Below are positions 11,678-49,388 of a DNA stretch of 64,000 bases, in pieces. Made by a program: the position numbers and the translations under genes. The notes beneath the pieces are model-generated. The model made no database searches, had not been told where the DNA came from, and was given only the letters and a program-made list of their open reading frames with translations. The stretch comes from Methyloversatilis sp. (GTDB taxonomy: Bacteria > Pseudomonadota > Gammaproteobacteria > Burkholderiales > Rhodocyclaceae): positions 124,001 through 188,000 of the forward strand of contig JAEUNO010000031.1 in assembly GCA_016791045.1 (NCBI GenBank), read 5' to 3'. Within the stretch, counting starts at the first letter, position 1. The number at the start of each line of letters is the position of its first letter.

Positions 11678-12256
11678 TCATCCGCCGGTAATCAGGCGCG
11701 CGATGAAGGCGCGCGAGGCGGCCGGACGCAGCGCCTCGCGATCGCCGTCCATCATGCCGAGGCCGAACACGTAGGCGTACAGCAGCAAGCTGCGGCTGGC
11801 GGCTTCGTCGGCGCCGTGGCCGGCGGCGACGAACAGTGCGCTGGCGCAGTCTAGCCGCACCGCGTCGACGGCGTCGATCACCGACTGCGCCGCAGCATCG
11901 TGGCGCGCCCAGTCGCGGATCGCCAGTTCCACGCGCATGCCGCGCTGGTTGCGGGCGAGGCTGTAGGTGTCGATCACGTGGTGAAGTTGCGCGATCTCGT
12001 GGCCGGGCGCACATTGCGTGCGCTGCGTGATGTCGTCGATGCGGCCGGCCCGCCAGTGCTCGAGCAGCGCGTCGAGCAGCGCGCGCCGGTCCTTGAAATG
12101 CCAGTAGAAGCTGCCCTTGGTCAGCCCGAGCTGGCGCGCCAGGCTTTCGACCTTGACGCCGTCGACGCCACTGTCCGCCAGGGTCTGGGTGGCCGCGCGC
12201 AGCCAGGTGTCGCGGTCTGTCTGCGGCCGGGGATCGACGCTTTCGGATTCTGGCAT
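11678..12256 (-). CDS. TetR-family regulator of the divergent etfBA-acyl-CoA dehydrogenase genes
   Basis: A 192-aa TetR/AcrR repressor. The N-terminal helix-turn-helix is clear (SLARQLGLTKGSFYWHFKDR, about residues 34-53). The ligand-binding C-terminal half is helical and family-specific. Met 12256 is preferred because the frame upstream (to 12382) would run through the operator palindromes and the etfB ribosome binding site. It is divergent from etfB with 116 bases between starts and two identical palindromes between them, the usual arrangement for a repressor that senses an acyl-CoA or related ligand. Ligand and target are inferred from position. Confidence 0.88.
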   Translation of the reverse strand: MPESESVDPRPQTDRDTWLRAATQTLADSGVDGVKVESLARQLGLTKGSFYWHFKDRRALLDALLEHWRAGRIDDITQRTQCAPGHEIAQLHHVIDTYSLARNQRGMRVELAIRDWARHDAAAQSVIDAVDAVRLDCASALFVAAGHGADEAASRSLLLYAYVFGLGMMDGDREALRPAASRAFIARLITGG

Positions 12257-12295
12257 GAGGCTATTCCGCATTCGGGTATTGACCATGGATTCAGG

Positions 12296-12335
12296 CATAC
12301 GGTAGCGTATGGATATGGACATACGCATCCGTATG
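12296..12335. promoter_or_regulatory. Double operator, CATACGNNNNCGTATG x2
   Basis: Two perfect dyads with identical arms: CATACG-gtag-CGTATG at 12296-12311 and CATACG-catc-CGTATG at 12320-12335. Their starts are 24 bases apart. Both lie between the divergent tetR (start 12256) and etfB (start 12373). Arms of 6 bp with a 4-base spacer are in the normal range for TetR-family sites, so this is the probable binding site of the adjacent regulator, controlling both promoters. Confidence 0.8.
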
Positions 12336-12372
12336 GGTGCGGCAGCACCTATCGGCGCAGGAGGCGCGAACG

Positions 12373-13125
12373 ATGAAAGCACTGGTTCCGGTCAAGCGGG
12401 TGATCGATTACAACGTGAAGATCCGCGTGGCGGCCGATGGCAGCGGCGTGGAAACCGCCAATGTGAAGATGTCGATGAATCCGTTCGACGAAATCGCGGT
12501 GGAAGAGGCGGTGCGGCTGCGCGAGGCGGGGGTGGTGACCGAAGTCATCGCGGTGTCGTGCGGCATCACGGCCTGCCAGGACACCTTGCGTGCCGCGATG
12601 GCGATCGGCGCCGACCGAGCCATCCTGGTCGCCAGCGACGTCGAATTGCAGCCACTGGCGGTGGCCAAGCTGCTCGCTGCCGTGGCGAAACGCGAAGCGC
12701 CGCAGCTGATCGTCTGCGGCAAGCAGGCGATCGACGATGACGCCAACCAGACCGGTCAGATGCTCGCCGCGCTGCTCGGCTGGGGTCAGGCGACCTTCGC
12801 GTCGAAGGTGCAGCTGGCCGACGGTCGCGCCGTGGTGACGCGCGAAATCGACGGCGGCCTCGAAACCGTCAGCGTTGCGCTGCCGGCGCTGATCAGCACC
12901 GACCTGCGCTTGAACGAGCCGCGCTACGCCAGTCTGCCCAACATCATGAAGGCGAAGAAGAAGCCGCTCGACACGCTGACGCCCGACGAACTGGGCGTGG
13001 ACGTGACGCCGCGCCTGACGACGCTGCGTGTTGCGGAACCGCCGAAGCGGCAGGCCGGCGTGAAGGTGGCCGACGTCGCCGAACTGGTCGCGAAGCTTCG
13101 CAACGAAGCCAAAGTCCTGCGCTGA
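12373..13125 (+). CDS. etfB: Electron transfer flavoprotein subunit beta
   Basis: A 250-aa EtfB. With EtfA it forms the FAD/AMP heterodimer that accepts electrons from acyl-CoA dehydrogenases and passes them to ETF-ubiquinone oxidoreductase. The N terminus [19 protein letters not shown] and the AMP-binding segment [16 protein letters not shown] are characteristic. ATG 12373 is supported by AGGAGG at 12359-12364, eight bases upstream. It is followed 12 bases later by etfA. Length matches the family (about 249 aa). Confidence 0.97.
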
Positions 13126-13137
13126 GGAATCCCTGAC

Positions 13138-14073
<936 letters not shown>

Positions 14074-14161
14074 CCGGCGCTTGATGGTCGCTGCAGGTTT
14101 GCCGCCCCGGCGATCCGCGGCACGGTATCAACGGGCCGCCAGAGCCCCGGAGGAGTGAGCC

Positions 14162-15952
14162 ATGAGTGAATACATTGCCCCGCTGCGCGACATGCGTTTC
14201 GCGCTGGAACTGGCCGGGCTGGCCGAAGTGGTGGCGCTGCCCGGGCTGGAGGATTCCAGCCCCGACGTGGTCGATGCCGTGCTCGACGAGGCTGCGCGCT
14301 TCACCTCCGAAGTGCTGTCGCCGCTGAACTGGATCGGCGATCGCGCCGGCGCCACGCTGGGTGCCGATGGCCGGGTGATGCTGCCGGAAGGCTTCGACGA
14401 CGCCTACCGGCAGTACGCTGAGAACGGGTGGAACGGCATGGGCTGCGACCCGGCACACGGCGGAGCGGGCATGCCGCATGTGGTGGTCGCGATGATCCAG
14501 GAAATGGTGATGGGCGCGAACATGGCATTTTCGCTGTGCCCGCTGCTCACCGCCGGCGCCATCGAAGCGCTGTCGCTGTGTGGTTCGGATGAACAGAAGC
14601 ACCTGTATCTGGACCGGATGGTGAGCGGCGAATGGACCGGCACCATGAACCTGACCGAACCGCAGGCCGGCTCCGACCTCGCCGCCGTGCGCACCCGCGC
14701 CGAGCCGCAGGCAGACGGCAGTTACCGTGTGTTCGGCCAGAAGATCTACATCACCTTCGGCGACCACGAACTGGCCGACAACATCGTGCATCTGGTGCTG
14801 GCACGCACGCCGGGCGCGCCCGAGGGCATGAAGGGCATTTCGCTGTTCATCGTGCCCAAGTTCGTTCCGGACGCCGACGGCAAGCCGGGTGCGCGCAACG
14901 ATGTGCGCTGTGTGTCGCTGGAACACAAGCTGGGCATCCACGCCAGTCCGACCTGCGTCATGGCCTACGGCGACGACGGCGGCGCGGTCGGCTGGCTGTG
15001 CGGCGAGGAAAATCGCGGCATCGAGTACATGTTCATCATGATGAATGCCGCGCGTTACGCGGTCGGCCTGCAGGGCATCGCGGTCGCCGAGCGCGCGCTG
15101 CAGCGCGCGATGGACTATGCGCGCGAGCGGGTGCAGGGTACCGAAGCGGGCATGAAGTCTGGCGAGCGCGTCGCCATCATCCGCCACCCGGATGTACGCC
15201 GCATGCTCATGCTGATGAAGTCGCAGGTCGAGGCGATGCGCGCGCTGGCCGCCGTGACGGCAGCGTCGCTGGACCGCGCCGAACATGACCCCGACCCGGA
15301 AGCGCGTACCCGGGCGCAGGGTTTCGTCGAACTGATGATTCCGCTGGTCAAGGGCTGGAGCACCGAAACCGCCAACGACATCGCCTCACTGGGCGTGCAG
15401 GTGCACGGCGGCATGGGCTACGTCGAGGAAACCGGTGCCGCGCAGTACCTGCGCGACGCACGCATCACCACGATCTACGAAGGCACGACGGCCATCCAGG
15501 CCAATGATCTGGTCGGCCGCAAGATCGCGCGTGACGGCGGTGCCGCCGCCCGCGCGGTGATTGCCGACATGCATGCGCAGTGCGCTGCGCTGGAGGCGAC
15601 CGGTGATGCGGCACTGGCCGTGATCGCCGCCGGCCTGCGCGACGCGGCGCAGGCGCTGGAGCGCGGCGTGGGCTTCGTGGTCGAACACTTCCGCAGCGAT
15701 GTGCGTGCCGTGCTGGCCGGGGCGGTGCCGCTGCTCGGCCTGTGCGGTCGCGCCGCCGGGGGCTGGCAGATGGCGCGTGCGGCGCTGTTGTCGCACCGTC
15801 ACCTGGCCGGCGGCAGCGCCGACGCAGACTTCCATCGCGCCAAGATCGCCAGCGCCCGCTTCTACGCCGACCATGTGCTGAGCCAGTGTGCCGGACTGGC
15901 GCATGTCGTGTGTCAGGGGGCGGCCGCGACGCTGGATGCGTCGCTGGACTGA
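14162..15952 (+). CDS. Acyl-CoA dehydrogenase (about 600-aa class with extra C-terminal domain)
   Basis: A 596-aa flavoprotein that oxidises an acyl-CoA to the 2-enoyl-CoA, passing electrons to EtfAB. ATG 14162 follows GGAGGAG. Domains: N-terminal helical region 1-150, middle beta domain with LTEPQAGSDLAAVRT, C-terminal helical domain with QVHGGMGYVEE and IYEGTTAIQANDL (the Glu440 region is where many ACADs carry the catalytic base), then an extra C-terminal domain of about 120 residues. This longer architecture is shared with DmdC-like (methylmercaptopropionyl-CoA) and other FadE-type enzymes, so chain-length preference cannot be stated. A hairpin (15970-15988) and the REP array follow. Confidence 0.93.
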   Translation: MSEYIAPLRDMRFALELAGLAEVVALPGLEDSSPDVVDAVLDEAARFTSEVLSPLNWIGDRAGATLGADGRVMLPEGFDDAYRQYAENGWNGMGCDPAHGGAGMPHVVVAMIQEMVMGANMAFSLCPLLTAGAIEALSLCGSDEQKHLYLDRMVSGEWTGTMNLTEPQAGSDLAAVRTRAEPQADGSYRVFGQKIYITFGDHELADNIVHLVLARTPGAPEGMKGISLFIVPKFVPDADGKPGARNDVRCVSLEHKLGIHASPTCVMAYGDDGGAVGWLCGEENRGIEYMFIMMNAARYAVGLQGIAVAERALQRAMDYARERVQGTEAGMKSGERVAIIRHPDVRRMLMLMKSQVEAMRALAAVTAASLDRAEHDPDPEARTRAQGFVELMIPLVKGWSTETANDIASLGVQVHGGMGYVEETGAAQYLRDARITTIYEGTTAIQANDLVGRKIARDGGAAARAVIADMHAQCAALEATGDAALAVIAAGLRDAAQALERGVGFVVEHFRSDVRAVLAGAVPLLGLCGRAAGGWQMARAALLSHRHLAGGSADADFHRAKIASARFYADHVLSQCAGLAHVVCQGAAATLDASLD

Positions 15953-44366: not shown

Positions 44367-46445
44367 TCAGAACCACGCATTCAGCGTGACGCTGCCGAAA
44401 CGGCGCCAGTAGCCGCTGCCGCCGCCCGGCGATCCGGCCTCGCTGTCGGACATGCCGGCGGCTGCGCGCAGCTGCCAGCCGGGCCCGAGGTCGTAGGCGA
44501 CCCAGCCTTCGAGCAGATAGTTGCGGCCGGACGCGCCGTTGCCGTCGCCATCGGTCTCGTCGTAGCGACCGAATGCAGCCTTGGCGTAATAGCTCCACGG
44601 GCGCACGTCGTCGTAGATCGACACGAAGGCCCGGTACTCGAGATAGCGGTCCGGGTTGTAGTAGCCGCGATTGGCGCGGCTGACGTTCCACGGCCGGCTG
44701 TTCTCGAAACGATTGCCCTCGATGCCCAGCCGGATCTGCGGGCGCGTCCACAGCGCATAGTCGCCACGCCAGGCGATGCGGTTGCGCTGGTTGTCGTCGT
44801 CGAACTCGAGCCGCGCGACGCTGCCGGCGAAGCTCCAGCGCGGCGTCGGCGTATAGGTCGCACCGATCGACACGTCGCGGAAATTCACTTCGTTGCGCAG
44901 CGCACTGATGGTATCGATGATGCCGCTGCCGGTTTCCGCGTCGATGCGCCACAGATCAGCGGGGACGTAGCGCAGGCGCGCACGCCACAGCGTGCTCTGC
45001 CAGCCGTCGTAATCGCGTCGGCCGAGCGTGAAGCTGGGCCACAGCGTGCCGCGGCTGCCGCGCACCTCGCCCAGACGCAATCCGTAGGTCGCGCTGATTT
45101 CGCTGCCGCTGACCGTGCGGCGCGGCGATCGTGTTCCGGTTTCGTAGCCGCTGATCTGTGGCAGACGCACGCCGACCTCGAAAAAATCGGTCGGCGAACG
45201 TCGCCAGCCGGCCAGCGCGAAGGGCGTGACGATACGCAACCGGTCGGCGTCGTCCGACCAGTCGATGCCGGCCGAGGCGTAGTGCTGCGTATCCCGCCGG
45301 ATGCGGTAATCGCGCAGCCACAGCGCGCCGTCGTCGTCGATGTCGGCCAGCAGCGGCATGGCCTCGTCGGCGTATCCGGCCCAGTACAGTGCGCGCGCTT
45401 TCGCGACCTTCAGGCCGGGATCTGCAGACGCATCCAGGCGGTCGAACTCGCTGATCGCGGCGCGATGCCGCCCGGCAAAGTTCTCCGCCTGCGCCAGACC
45501 GAGCTGTGCATCGGCGTCGTCCGGATCGGTCTGCAGCAGGGTGGCGTAGATCGCCCGCGCACCGGCCGGGTCGTCCGACCACAGCAGCGCGCGCGCCAGG
45601 CCGCGTTGCGCCGTGCGGTCGTCCGGCTGGTCGGCGAGCAGCTTGCGCCACGCCTCGGCCGAACAGGGGTGACGGTCCAGCGCGGCGCAGGCCTGCGCAA
45701 GGCCGCGCCAGGTTTCAGGCAAGCCGATTCCTTCGGCGTGCGCGTCCGAGAACAGCGTACGGGCACCCGCGGCATCGCCTGACCACAAGGTCTGCCAGGC
45801 CAGCGGCAGCAACCAGTCGGTGCGTCGCTCGGGCGCGAGTTGAAGCGCTTGCCGCCAGGCGAGCGCCGACTCGGCGTTGCGGTCGGCATAGCCCAGCACG
45901 CGTGCCACCTCGGCCGTGCGTGCCGCATCCGCGCGGTCCACCCGGGCCAGCTGTGCGTAGGTGTCGAGTGCGCCGTTGTAGTCCTGCGCCGCGGTGCGCG
46001 AACGTGCCAGGCCGAGCAGGGATTCGATCAGGCCGCGCCGGCTGTCGCTGACCGAGGCTGCATCGGACCAGCCATTCATCCGCTGCTGGAACAGCGCCGC
46101 AGCGCGTTCGAAGCGACCCGCCCAGAGCGACTGCCAGGCGAGTGAAGGGAGGATGTCGGCCTGTCGGGCGGGTGCCACGCGCAGGGCGCGTTCATACAGG
46201 TCGGCGGCGGCCTCGTTCCGGTCGGCAAATCCTTCGACCCGCGCGGCTTCGATCAGCAGGTCGGTATCGTCCGGAAACTGCTGCACCAGACCGCGGTAGA
46301 GCTCGATCGCCGGTGCGTACTCTCGCGCGTCGACCAGCCTGCGCGCTTCCTCTCGCTGCGGGTGAGCGGCGAAAGCGGGCTTCAATGCGGGCAGCGAAAG
46401 CATCAGCGTCAGGGCGAGCGTCAGGGCAGGCAGTGCGCGCGTCAT
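44367..46445 (-). CDS. PgaA-like TPR/beta-barrel exopolysaccharide export protein
   Basis: A 692-aa exported protein (signal peptide ALPALTLALTLMLSLPALKP). Residues about 25-350 are TPR repeats (for example AREYAPAIELYRGLVQQFPD, then DPAGARAIYATLLQTDPDD). Residues about 370-692 are alternating beta strands ending in FGSVTLNAWF, the C-terminal Phe expected of an outer-membrane barrel. This architecture is that of PgaA, the PNAG exporter (807 aa in E. coli), here shorter. It is the last gene of the unit, 38 bases after the PgaC-like gene. The start is ATG 46445; an upstream TTG at 46478 is less likely. The exported polymer is inferred, not shown. Confidence 0.82.
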   Translation of the reverse strand: MTRALPALTLALTLMLSLPALKPAFAAHPQREEARRLVDAREYAPAIELYRGLVQQFPDDTDLLIEAARVEGFADRNEAAADLYERALRVAPARQADILPSLAWQSLWAGRFERAAALFQQRMNGWSDAASVSDSRRGLIESLLGLARSRTAAQDYNGALDTYAQLARVDRADAARTAEVARVLGYADRNAESALAWRQALQLAPERRTDWLLPLAWQTLWSGDAAGARTLFSDAHAEGIGLPETWRGLAQACAALDRHPCSAEAWRKLLADQPDDRTAQRGLARALLWSDDPAGARAIYATLLQTDPDDADAQLGLAQAENFAGRHRAAISEFDRLDASADPGLKVAKARALYWAGYADEAMPLLADIDDDGALWLRDYRIRRDTQHYASAGIDWSDDADRLRIVTPFALAGWRRSPTDFFEVGVRLPQISGYETGTRSPRRTVSGSEISATYGLRLGEVRGSRGTLWPSFTLGRRDYDGWQSTLWRARLRYVPADLWRIDAETGSGIIDTISALRNEVNFRDVSIGATYTPTPRWSFAGSVARLEFDDDNQRNRIAWRGDYALWTRPQIRLGIEGNRFENSRPWNVSRANRGYYNPDRYLEYRAFVSIYDDVRPWSYYAKAAFGRYDETDGDGNGASGRNYLLEGWVAYDLGPGWQLRAAAGMSDSEAGSPGGGSGYWRRFGSVTLNAWF

Positions 46446-46483
46446 GGAACGGGATGTTGCGGGCAAGTCGTATAACAAAAGTA

Positions 46484-47755
46484 TCAGGCCTCGCGCCCGG
46501 TGCGCGGCGTGTTCCAGGTGATGGACTGTCGCGCAGGCGCAACAAACAGGTGGTGCAGCGACATGCAGGTGGTGATCGCAAGGAAGGCCCAGTAAACAAG
46601 CGGATAGAACACGGCGTACGGAAAGTAGCGCCAGATTCCGCGGTCATACCGGTGGTCGATCAGCGTGCCCAGGGCGAGCTGTATCAGGCACAGGGTGGCG
46701 ATCACCATGCCCCACAGATTGGGCAGCGGCGACGCACCGACCGGTGGAAAGCCGATCGCCCACGATGTGATCCAGAGAGAAGTCATCGCGACGAATACGA
46801 TGGCCCAGCAGATCGACAGCACCGATTCGATGAACATCGGCCACATGCGGCGATAGCGCCAGTGCAGGATGACGTCGCGATGGCGGCGCAGCACCTGCAT
46901 CAGGCCGCGCGCCCAGCGCAGGCGCTGCCGGAACAGCGCCCGGAAGTGCGTCGGCACGGTCATCCATACGATGGCGTGCGGCTCGTAGCGGATGTCGTGA
47001 AAGTGGCGCTGCAGTTTCCAGGTCAGTTCGATGTCTTCGGTCGGCATGTCGGGCGAAAAGCTGCCGACCGACTGCACCGCGCTCTTGCGGAAGGCGGCGA
47101 CCACGCCCGACACGGTGACGATGCGGCCCCAGATCCGCTGCGAACGCCGCAGCAGGCTGACGATGGACGTGAATTCGATCGCCTGCAGCCGGCTCAGGAA
47201 GTTGTCGACGTTGCGCACCCGCGGATTGCCGGTGACTGCGGCGACGCGGGCGCTCTGAAAGTGCGGGACCAGATGCCACAGGATGTCCTGTTCGGGCTCT
47301 GCATCGGCATCCATGATGAGCACGATGTCGCCGCGCAGCATCGGCAACGCGTCGTTCAGCGCCATCGCCTTGCCCTCGTTGATGCGCTTGTCGATCAGGC
47401 GCACCCGGCCCGTCTGCACGAAAGGCAACACCTGGCGCACCGTGCCGTCGCTGGAGCCGTCATTGACCACCACGATTTCGTAGTCCGGGTAGTCGACAGC
47501 GCACGCGGCGACCAGCGAGCGCGCGATCACTGCATCTTCGTTGTGCGCCGGAATCAGGATGCTGACGGGCGGGGCGAAGCTGCGGTCGGGCGCCGCCGCA
47601 CCCGGCTCGTCGCGTTCCCAGCGGAACACGAAGAACAGCGACGTGGTGATCCACACCAGACTGGAAATGATGGGGTAGGCAGCAAAGAAGAACAGCGCCA
47701 CCGAGTAGGTGCCGGTGTACTGAAAGCTGATCAGCAGGCCTTCGAGCACGTCCAT
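46484..47755 (-). CDS. PgaC-like processive glycosyltransferase
   Basis: A 423-aa GT2 membrane synthase resembling PgaC/IcaA (poly-beta-1,6-GlcNAc synthase, UDP-GlcNAc donor). Two N-terminal TM segments precede the GT-A domain: VSILIPAHNEDAVIARSLVA, VVNDGSSDGT, LIMDADAEPE (Asp149, Asp151), MPTEDIELTWKLQ (catalytic Asp), and the processivity motif RQRLRWARGL (QxxRW). Three to four TM segments follow. Length is close to E. coli PgaC (441). A different hexosamine polymer is possible. It is flanked by PgaD-like (10 bases upstream) and PgaA-like genes. Confidence 0.9.
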   Translation of the reverse strand: MDVLEGLLISFQYTGTYSVALFFFAAYPIISSLVWITTSLFFVFRWERDEPGAAAPDRSFAPPVSILIPAHNEDAVIARSLVAACAVDYPDYEIVVVNDGSSDGTVRQVLPFVQTGRVRLIDKRINEGKAMALNDALPMLRGDIVLIMDADAEPEQDILWHLVPHFQSARVAAVTGNPRVRNVDNFLSRLQAIEFTSIVSLLRRSQRIWGRIVTVSGVVAAFRKSAVQSVGSFSPDMPTEDIELTWKLQRHFHDIRYEPHAIVWMTVPTHFRALFRQRLRWARGLMQVLRRHRDVILHWRYRRMWPMFIESVLSICWAIVFVAMTSLWITSWAIGFPPVGASPLPNLWGMVIATLCLIQLALGTLIDHRYDRGIWRYFPYAVFYPLVYWAFLAITTCMSLHHLFVAPARQSITWNTPRTGREA

Positions 47756-47764
47756 GACCGCCGG

Positions 47765-48178
47765 TCAGCCCTTGCCGAACAGGCGCGACACTCCTGGATT
47801 GACGCTGCGCGGCGCGAGGCAGCGATACAGCTTTCGGGAATCGACGACGCCGATCACCGTGATGGGCGCGGTGCGCAGCATGTCCCAGTCGGCCACCACC
47901 GGGCGCCCGGCCCAGTCGTGCAGGTATTCGGCCTTCGTGTCAGGCAACCGGCGCCGGGGGCCCTTGAGCTTGAACAACGCCAGATTGTGCAGCACCCAGT
48001 ACAGCGTCACCGTCGGGCTGATGATCAAAGTGGCAACGATCATCCAGGCCAGTACGCCGTAGTCGGGCAGGTCGCGACCGACCAGCACCCATGCCCAGCC
48101 GAACAGGAACCACCCCGTGGCGACGACGACGACATGCAGCAGTCGCTGACCCGCGCCGCGCAGCGGCTCACGGCGCAT
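47765..48178 (-). CDS. PgaD-like small membrane protein
   Basis: A 137-aa protein with two TM helices near the N terminus (LLHVVVVATGWFLFGWAWVL and MIVATLIISPTVTLYWVLHN), followed by a soluble tail. Size (E. coli PgaD, 137 aa), topology and position directly upstream of the PgaC-like gene identify it as the PgaD-type subunit, which in E. coli supports PgaC polymerisation and binds c-di-GMP with it. Start 48178 overlaps the PEP-CTERM stop (TGATG). Identification rests on context and topology more than on sequence. Confidence 0.72.
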   Translation of the reverse strand: MRREPLRGAGQRLLHVVVVATGWFLFGWAWVLVGRDLPDYGVLAWMIVATLIISPTVTLYWVLHNLALFKLKGPRRRLPDTKAEYLHDWAGRPVVADWDMLRTAPITVIGVVDSRKLYRCLAPRSVNPGVSRLFGKG

Positions 48179-48990
48179 CAGGTACGTCGCCGGGCGGCAA
48201 CGGCGATCAGGCCCAGCCCACCCAGCAGCATCCACCAGGTGGCGGGTTCGGGTACCGGCAGCGGCTGCGTCAGGCTGAGCAGGTTCTCGGTCGGCACGAG
48301 CGTCCAGTCGGCGGCACCCTCGCGCGACCAGCGCAGGTCGACGACGCCTGCTTCCAGCCGGTTGTAGGCACCCAGCTGAAAGCGGTAAAGGCCGACGTCA
48401 AGCAGGATGTCCTGCTCGAAGCCGAGCCGGTCACGCGGATTCACGCCGTCCTTGACCAGCGACAGCATCGCGCCGTCTGCGCCGTAAAGATTGAAGAAGA
48501 AGCCGTCGTCATACAGCACGCCGAAGTTGTAGAGGCTCTTTTCGGTGATGCGGATGTAGCCGTCGAAGCGCGACAGCCAGTTGGTCTGTGGCTCGCTCAG
48601 CGGCAGTTCAAGCGTGGTTCCCCATTGCGCGGCGTACATCGCGTTGTAGAGCGTGTTGCCGAAATTCACCTGGCTCGCGATGCCGGTCCAGCGTTCGATG
48701 ACGCCGGACTGTCCTGCCGGCTGGTCGATCAGCGCATGCCAGTCGGCGATGCCCCAGATGCCGGTGCCCCAGGCAAAGTCGGAGATCGGTTGTCCGCTGC
48801 CATACGAGAGCGTGGCTTCATCCCACAGCACGGTGCTGCCCTGCCAGTTGTCATCGATCTTGACGAACAGCGCATCCGATCCGCCACCGGTGCCGTAGCT
48901 TCCGGGCAGTGCAGGTGCCAGGTCGACGGCGAAGGCTGCGAGCGGTGCCGCCAGGGCCGTCGCCAGCAATGACGAGAGTGATTTTTTCAT
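48178..48990 (-). CDS. PEP-CTERM protein with PA14-like domain, first gene of the Pga-like operon
   Basis: A 270-aa exported protein. Signal peptide: MKKSLSSLLATALAAPLAAF. Residues about 130-225 look like a PA14-type carbohydrate-binding module (YIRITEKSLYNFGVLYDDGF, then LDVGLYRFQLGAYNRLEAGV). The C terminus has the exosortase signal: PVPEPATWWML, hydrophobic stretch, AVAARRRT. Its stop overlaps the PgaD-like start, so synthesis is coupled to the polysaccharide machinery. The likely role is a cell-surface or matrix protein binding the polymer made by this locus; this is inferred. No exosortase gene is in the window. Confidence 0.85.
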   Translation of the reverse strand: MKKSLSSLLATALAAPLAAFAVDLAPALPGSYGTGGGSDALFVKIDDNWQGSTVLWDEATLSYGSGQPISDFAWGTGIWGIADWHALIDQPAGQSGVIERWTGIASQVNFGNTLYNAMYAAQWGTTLELPLSEPQTNWLSRFDGYIRITEKSLYNFGVLYDDGFFFNLYGADGAMLSLVKDGVNPRDRLGFEQDILLDVGLYRFQLGAYNRLEAGVVDLRWSREGAADWTLVPTENLLSLTQPLPVPEPATWWMLLGGLGLIAVAARRRT

Positions 48991-49388
48991 GACTTTGGTG
49001 TCCGGATTGAGCGAAGTCCTGCAGCATCGGACGCGTGCGTTACTGCGCCATGACTGCGTTTGGGACCGATTATGTAATACAACTTAGGTTATGTGGCTGC
49101 CGGAAGGCAGGACTCCCGTCACAACCGTCGACGTGCAGGCCTGCGGGAATGCCAACTATTGTTACAACGGGCCTTCCGGACCACGTCGTGGCGCTGTGGT
49201 CCGCCGCGGCAGCGCATGCTCGAACACAGTACGGGCAGTGCACGCTGTGCCTCCGAGCTACGTTCTGCGCCACGGCACCGCTGCCGCTATACTTCGCCGC
49301 GATTTGTGCGCGCCCGGCGCACTCCGGCGCCCGTCCGGCCGATGTGCCCGCGCCGATTCACCGTTCAATGTCCAGTGACCGTCACGCC
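48991..49388. other. Divergent intergenic region, Pga-like operon / serC
   Basis: 398 bases. A frame in phase with serC is open from 49035, but its translation is not protein-like. There is an AT-richer patch around 49065-49095 that may hold promoters. I saw no convincing sigma-70 pair, no GG-N10-GC sigma-54 site and no clear dyad. Confidence 0.35.

Follow-up and report, generated by a model that had tools for sequence, protein, structure and literature searches.

A pga-like operon without PgaB encodes a PA14/PEP-CTERM protein in Methyloversatilis

Gene content of the locus

The window analyzed here is a 64,000-nucleotide stretch of a Methyloversatilis sp. genome (GenBank assembly GCA_016791045.1, contig JAEUNO010000031.1, positions 124,001–188,000; genome of 3.54 Mb in 47 contigs, ~92% complete). 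It carries an exopolysaccharide operon related to those for poly-N-acetylglucosamine (PNAG). As in the pgaABCD operon of E. coli K-12, a GT2 synthase, a PgaD-like partner, and an exporter with tetratricopeptide repeats (TPR) and a β-barrel are encoded together; unlike that operon, the one in the window has no gene for the deacetylase PgaB and has instead a gene for a 270-amino acid PA14 protein with an exosortase-substrate tail, and its PgaC and PgaA score below the PNAG cut-offs. All four minus-strand open reading frames (44367–48990) were verified, and the operon is real. The tight gene order described in the first-pass annotation (PA14/PEP-CTERM gene, pgaD-like, pgaC-like, pgaA-like) was confirmed, with intergenic gaps of −1, 9, and 5 bases, the first being a one-base overlap between the stop codon of the PA14/PEP-CTERM gene and the ATG of the pgaD-like gene (TGATG). 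The pgaA-like reading frame encodes 703 amino acids if translated from a TTG, while an in-frame ATG at 46445 is the likelier start. A terminator had also been placed after pgaA, and a stem with a T run is present there, although the signal is weak (Table 1). The closest named relatives found for the locus are three Methyloversatilis records (L006–L008), in which the 270-amino acid protein is 93–96% identical.

Table 1. Positions of features in the window.
Feature	Position	Strand	Basis
PA14/PEP-CTERM gene, 270 amino acids, first gene of operon	48178..48990	-	Signal peptide at about residues 1–21, by eye
PA14 region, about residues 126–245	48256..48615	-	Profile of 15 relatives against PA14 chain 6qdi, 3.2e-8
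Asp161-Asp162 codons, DD[GA]F motif, putative calcium/sugar site	48505..48510	-	Motif in 15/15 relatives; function by analogy with PA14 lectins
PEP-CTERM sorting signal, residues 245–269	48184..48258	-	PF07589, 1.6e-8
PgaD-like gene, 137 amino acids	47765..48178	-	Weak profile match to PgaD
PgaC-like GT2 synthase gene, 423 amino acids	46484..47755	-	DGSxD, DAD, TED, and QRLRW motifs
PgaA-like TPR and β-barrel exporter gene	44367..46478	-	Pfam barrel match
Terminator-like stem with T run, 3' of pgaA	44333..44345	-	Weak: 7 such sites in region vs 2.5 in shuffles
14-base element upstream of operon	49076..49089	-	Kept in 8/8 genus loci, at differing chromosomal places

The synthase has the QxxRW motif noted at first pass as well as the other motifs listed in Table 1. 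It is ~33% identical to E. coli PgaC and scores 384.7 bits against TIGR03937, which is under the 422.3-bit cut-off of this PNAG equivalog family. The exporter assignment holds at the level of the barrel (Pfam PgaA_barrel, 5.1e-9, 36.1 bits, cut-off 27) and falls short at the level of the full-length family (TIGR03939, 70 bits, cut-off 366.65). The PgaD-like protein has the size and the two hydrophobic stretches claimed for it, and its family match is weak: no Pfam or NCBIfam profile matched at E≤1 (scanned as 138 residues, with one extra leading codon), and profile-profile comparison with known PgaD by hhalign gave an E-value of 1.4e-4 and a probability of 53%. The name PgaD rests mainly on protein size, the hydrophobic stretches, and gene position.

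Distribution of the PA14 gene and of PgaB

We searched 297 genomes of the family and 399 genomes of the order. The 270-amino acid protein had some match in 25 of the 297 family genomes; 11 of these were near full length (8 of the 13 sampled genus genomes, plus G049, G175, and G250 from three other genera), and the remaining partial matches covered part of the C-terminal half only. Four further genomes came from the order sample (G459, G501, G530, and G559; locus L009 is the same record as that of G530 and was counted once). The PA14 gene adjoins pga genes in all 15 genomes that have a near-full-length copy, which bears out the proposed association. The four-gene order is identical in the eight genus loci, which lie at differing chromosomal places (a serC flank is kept in the window and in L050–L053, and not in L054–L056), and it recurs in the four order-sample genomes, with pgaA of G501 running off its contig. 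This order is beyond chance, being shared by 12 of the 15 PA14-bearing loci, the window included. In G049, G175, and G250, the PA14 gene is instead divergent from pgaA-pgaC-pgaD (pgaD of G049 being found by profile). The link with the pga genes persists across two gene arrangements, three families, and two PgaC groups. Relatives of the PA14 protein were also sought in viral contigs, and none was found there. Proteins of G206 and G243 (L060 and L061) were rejected as relatives; they matched the profile at only 2.7e-5 and 6.5e-5, a similarity that probably lies in the PEP-CTERM tail, and look metalloprotease-like by eye.

The distribution of the PA14 gene is complementary to that of PgaB. PgaC occurs in 51 genomes, 17 of the 297 from the family and 34 more of the 399 from the order. 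In 15 of these 51, the PA14 gene adjoins pgaC and PgaB was not detected; in the other 36, PgaB is present and no relative of the PA14 protein was detected. No genome has both or neither. The thresholds differed between samples, being 1e-70 (family) and 1e-90 (order) for PgaC (TIGR03937) and 1e-30 and 1e-10 for PgaB (TIGR03938); the PA14 protein was sought with the single protein at 1e-5 in the family sample and with a profile at 1e-8 in the order sample. In the family, 11 of the 17 PgaC genomes are exactly those with a near-full-length PA14 protein, and all of these lack PgaB at E≤1e-30. The remaining six (G158, G187, G210, G249, G264, and G268) have PgaB beside pgaC and no PA14 match; the whole-genome PA14 search in these six used the single protein, and their pga loci were unmatched by the profile too. 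G158 is counted on a partial PgaC match. G213, outside this set, matches TIGR03938 weakly, under the cut-off, and has no PgaC at the family threshold. In the order, PgaC was found in 35 of 399 genomes including the window's own; among the 34 others, PgaB is present at E≤1e-10 in 30 (29 above the cut-off), with PgaB and pgaC on different contigs in G489 and G634, and the four in which it was not detected at that threshold coincide with the four PA14 genomes.

The description of the operon as lacking PgaB therefore extends to all 15 PA14 genomes, which are without a TIGR03938 match at these thresholds (E≤1e-30 in 11, E≤1e-10 in 4). No PgaB was found elsewhere in the window's own genome, and PF14883 had no match in that ~92% complete assembly. 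Fisher tests of the association gave 3e-13 across genomes and 1e-6 across genera; because they count related genomes as independent, they were not used as evidence.

The enzyme expected for an exosortase substrate is encoded in every genome with the PA14 gene. Exosortase (PF09721) was found in 15 of 15 PA14 genomes, in 14 of the 36 PgaB genomes, and in all five genus members without the operon. The window's own genome has both XrtA and XrtB above the NCBIfam cut-offs, and we assume that XrtA processes the PA14 protein.

The first-pass annotation took the polymer to be a poly-hexosamine, and this is well supported for the three other genera. PgaC of G049, G175, and G250 is above the PNAG cut-off (TIGR03937, 576–595 bits), and PgaD of G175 and G250, the two tested, is above that of TIGR03940. 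By sequence, these three genomes plainly appear to carry PNAG machinery without PgaB, and they are most naturally read as making poly-β-1,6-N-acetylglucosamine (poly-GlcNAc) in the absence of PgaB. The synthase motifs are intact in all 15 PA14-linked genomes, and a polymer is therefore likely made. For the window itself, with its divergent PgaC, poly-GlcNAc is only the likely product.

A candidate lectin in place of PgaB

The 270-amino acid protein has a well-supported sorting signal, made up of a C-terminal PEP motif, a hydrophobic stretch, and a basic end (PF07589, 34.7 bits, cut-off 20.7), and 12 of the 15 members of its protein family match the same PEP-CTERM profile. The match to the PA14 profile is under the cut-off for the window protein (PF07691, 1.6e-3, 18.7 bits, cut-off 24), while all 15 members match at E≤0.1, the best at 8.4e-9. 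A profile built from the 15 relatives found, besides the PA14 chain in Table 1, RsgI3 (1.7e-5) among chains in the PDB, and chains deposited as ‘Antifreeze protein’ (~0.03), which we take to be the MpPA14 lectin. In alignment with solved PA14 chains, the DD[GA]F motif falls on their DDG, and by analogy with these chains its consecutive aspartates, Asp161 and Asp162, are likely a calcium/sugar site. PA14 is a binding domain, and deacetylation by the 270-amino acid protein is therefore unlikely.

In a β-1,6-linked polymer, the 3 and 4 positions of every residue stay free. MpPA14 of Marinomonas is a point of reference for recognition of such a sugar: its Asp-Asp pair holds a calcium ion that binds sugar 3,4-diols, and its strongest ligands are reported as L-fucose and GlcNAc (PMC8092209). 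Its binding to a GlcNAc hexamer was poor, since a free 3,4-diol is present on the terminal residue alone (PMC8092209).

Deacetylation aids retention of PNAG on the cell through charge. In the reading that we favor, which is quite possible without being probable, the operon is a PNAG-type, synthase-dependent system without PgaB in which the exosortase-sorted PA14 protein does part of the job of PgaB, namely retaining the polymer. PgaC and PgaD would make poly-GlcNAc and move it across the inner membrane, and PgaA would export it, with no deacetylation at the locus. The PA14 protein would exit by way of its signal peptide, be processed by XrtA, and remain at the cell surface or in the matrix. 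There, the Asp-Asp calcium site would bind the 3,4-diols left free on each GlcNAc, and the lectin would hold the polymer on the cell in place of the positive charge created by PgaB. The specific form of this proposal, in which a calcium lectin has replaced PgaB and a fully acetylated poly-GlcNAc is held through its 3,4-diols, is somewhat more tentative. The gene-level tests (synteny, PgaB, exosortase, and PA14 profiles) support the interpretation of the operon. Two published observations agree, by analogy, with retention by a protein: transport of the polymer in B. bronchiseptica is described as not needing deacetylation, and a PEP-CTERM protein lowered soluble exopolysaccharide, raised bound exopolysaccharide, and restored flocs (PMC9850573).

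Several observations weigh against this proposal. The same PEP-CTERM protein restored flocs and not biofilm (PMC9850573), and PNAG export in E. coli and Bordetella is reported to depend critically on PgaB (PMC5933820). The sugars bound vary among PA14 lectins. Structure prediction adds little to the agreement of the sequence profiles on PA14, since the AlphaFold model of the 270-amino acid protein, made from five sequences (the window and four relatives), is of low confidence (mean predicted local distance difference test score, 34.4). The tails of G501, G530, and G559 lack the PEP motif. The window PgaC, under the PNAG cut-off, is also on a long tree branch. CE4 deacetylases are encoded elsewhere in all 15 operon genomes, and the genomes represent few independent events, with one or two origins.

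The three tails without PEP (L155, L154, and L156 for G501, G530, and G559) keep a hydrophobic stretch and a basic end, with PEP replaced by the PGT-like LPGT in G530, MPGT in G501, and APGT in G559. Each of these genomes has an exosortase, and the PGT-like tail is possibly a variant sorting signal.

Deacetylation might also occur in trans, through the CE4 enzyme of the XrtA locus (TIGR03006) or another CE4 protein, the PA14 protein then being an added matrix protein in a normal system for deacetylated PNAG. CE4 genes are available, with at least two PF01522 matches in each of 20 genomes searched (all 15 operon genomes plus five of the genus that lack the operon). Of the two such loci in the window's own genome, one is the XrtA-locus deacetylase (443 bits) and the other encodes a weakly PgaB-like protein on contig C8. 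By coordinates, however, the CE4 genes all lie outside the 15 pga loci. Two CE4 matches were likewise found in each of the five operon-less genus members, so that no candidate for a dedicated deacetylase tracks the operon. We consider deacetylation in trans unlikely. The C8 protein (L064:6716–7849) lies far from the operon, and its match to TIGR03938 is partial (43.8 bits vs a cut-off of 321.9).

Retention at the surface may be secondary if the PA14 protein acts in the periplasm, binding the polymer and handing it to PgaA in place of the export role of the PgaB C-terminal domain. That domain is described as binding PNAG and as critical for export (PMC5933820), and the TPR domain of PgaA works with it (PMC9384988), so a binding domain could substitute. 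The exosortase tail present in most members suggests a destination past the periplasm, and the transport without deacetylation described for B. bronchiseptica also speaks against a periplasmic role, which we judge to be quite unlikely.

The association may reflect shared descent only, that is, an old PgaB-less PgaC lineage that carries a dispensable PA14 gene. A PgaC tree of 51 rows was built from 50 of the 51 PgaC genomes and E. coli K-12 (left out were the partial sequence L074 of G158; L160, L163, and L164, which duplicate genomes already included; and the second PgaC copy of G452). The PA14-linked PgaCs form two groups, one of 12 divergent members including the window and one of G250, G049, and G175, placed within the PgaB set. 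These groups were joined in 0% of 200 bootstrap trees, yet a single clade was not rejected by the approximately unbiased test (p 0.194); two independent replacements of PgaB were therefore dropped as a claim, and the genomes are not independent trials. Distances between PA14 proteins and between PgaCs are correlated (Mantel r 0.92, a value reached in 0 of 5000 permutations), as expected for a jointly inherited unit. On the other side, the link has outlasted changes of arrangement, chromosomal place, and family, and the PA14 gene has been lost in none of the 15 genomes, which makes a dispensable passenger improbable. The 12 divergent members span three families (f1, f10, and f43), and this spread suggests transfer of the unit.

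Equally improbable is that the window's divergent PgaC, with a PgaD that is scarcely recognizable, makes another polymer that never needed PgaB and is bound by the PA14 protein, since the three-genus group above the PNAG cut-off has the same PA14 protein and is likewise without PgaB.

Parts of this arrangement have precedents. TraA of myxobacteria is a PA14-like adhesin with a MYXO-CTERM tail that functions in outer-membrane exchange; it resembles the window protein in that a PA14-like region and a C-terminal sorting tag occur together, and differs in having no known link to a polysaccharide synthase. MpPA14 shares the PA14 region and its Asp-Asp pair and is a domain of a 1.5-MDa adhesin (PMC8092209), whereas the window protein has 270 amino acids and is tied to a synthase operon. 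PepA of Aquincola is, like the window protein, a short exosortase substrate linked to exopolysaccharide, and converts released polymer to bound polymer; as described, it is a single gene under σ54 (PMC9850573), whereas the PA14 gene is co-transcribed with, or divergent from, its own polymer synthase genes and in the window has no convincing σ54 site. Pga operons without pgaB and pgaD occur in environmental bacteria (Bundalovic-Torma et al. 2020, PMC7112194). These lack a detected PgaB and may be the same operons as those described here; the available text of that study makes no tie to a PEP-CTERM/PA14 protein, and a pgaD-like gene is present in the window. Operons of this kind without pgaB are thus already known. 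In a literature search whose coverage excluded preprints and most subscription papers, we found no report linking pga operons without pgaB to a PA14/PEP-CTERM exosortase substrate, and none combining PEP-CTERM with pgaC or exosortase with PNAG.

If the lectin proposal is correct, the PA14 protein would be, to our knowledge, the first substrate of an exosortase whose polymer partner is defined. As a polymer of biofilms PNAG is widespread, and its Gram-negative machinery is usually taken to include PgaB as a fixed part. On the lectin proposal, the indispensable service of PgaB would be retention, which could be supplied by charge or by a lectin, suggesting a different means of keeping a biofilm polymer on the cell in some environmental bacteria. 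Lineages that lack PgaB and bear the PA14 gene make it testable what PEP-CTERM proteins bind and which activities of PgaB export and retention require.

Upstream sequences and neighboring genes

The conserved 14-base element lies ~86 bases upstream of the PA14 gene; it matches nowhere else in the window and gave no match in 100 shuffles. It was found in 26 of 198 loci examined, and all 26 cover the pga/PA14 region in the eight genus genomes. A σ54 promoter like that of the published PEP-CTERM regulon was rejected for the window gene, upstream of which no convincing −24/−12 site was found among GG/GC-anchored sites (best, 6 of 11 consensus bases); G459, with 9 of 11, scored best among the 15 upstream stretches.

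Two PEP-CTERM proteins were noted outside the set of 15. At the PgaB-bearing locus of G210, a PEP-CTERM-like protein that the PA14 profile did not match is encoded ~1.5 kb from pgaC (L161:851–1687). A PEP-CTERM protein of G050, on a 3.9-kb contig (L158:1477–2289), has a partial match to the PA14-family profile (1.6e-11), and G050 has no PgaC at threshold.

In G049, the pga and PA14 genes are flanked by genes that by eye resemble a zinc-type ATP-binding cassette (ABC) uptake system and a Fur/Zur-like regulator (L057:3415–5069, 12181–14426), and a similar ABC gene is near the locus in G250 (L059). In G559, a GGDEF diguanylate cyclase gene lies directly 3' of pgaA on the same strand (L156:2267–3538; TIGR00254, 1.5e-49), a position in keeping with the reported control of PgaC-PgaD by cyclic di-GMP (PMC7112194).

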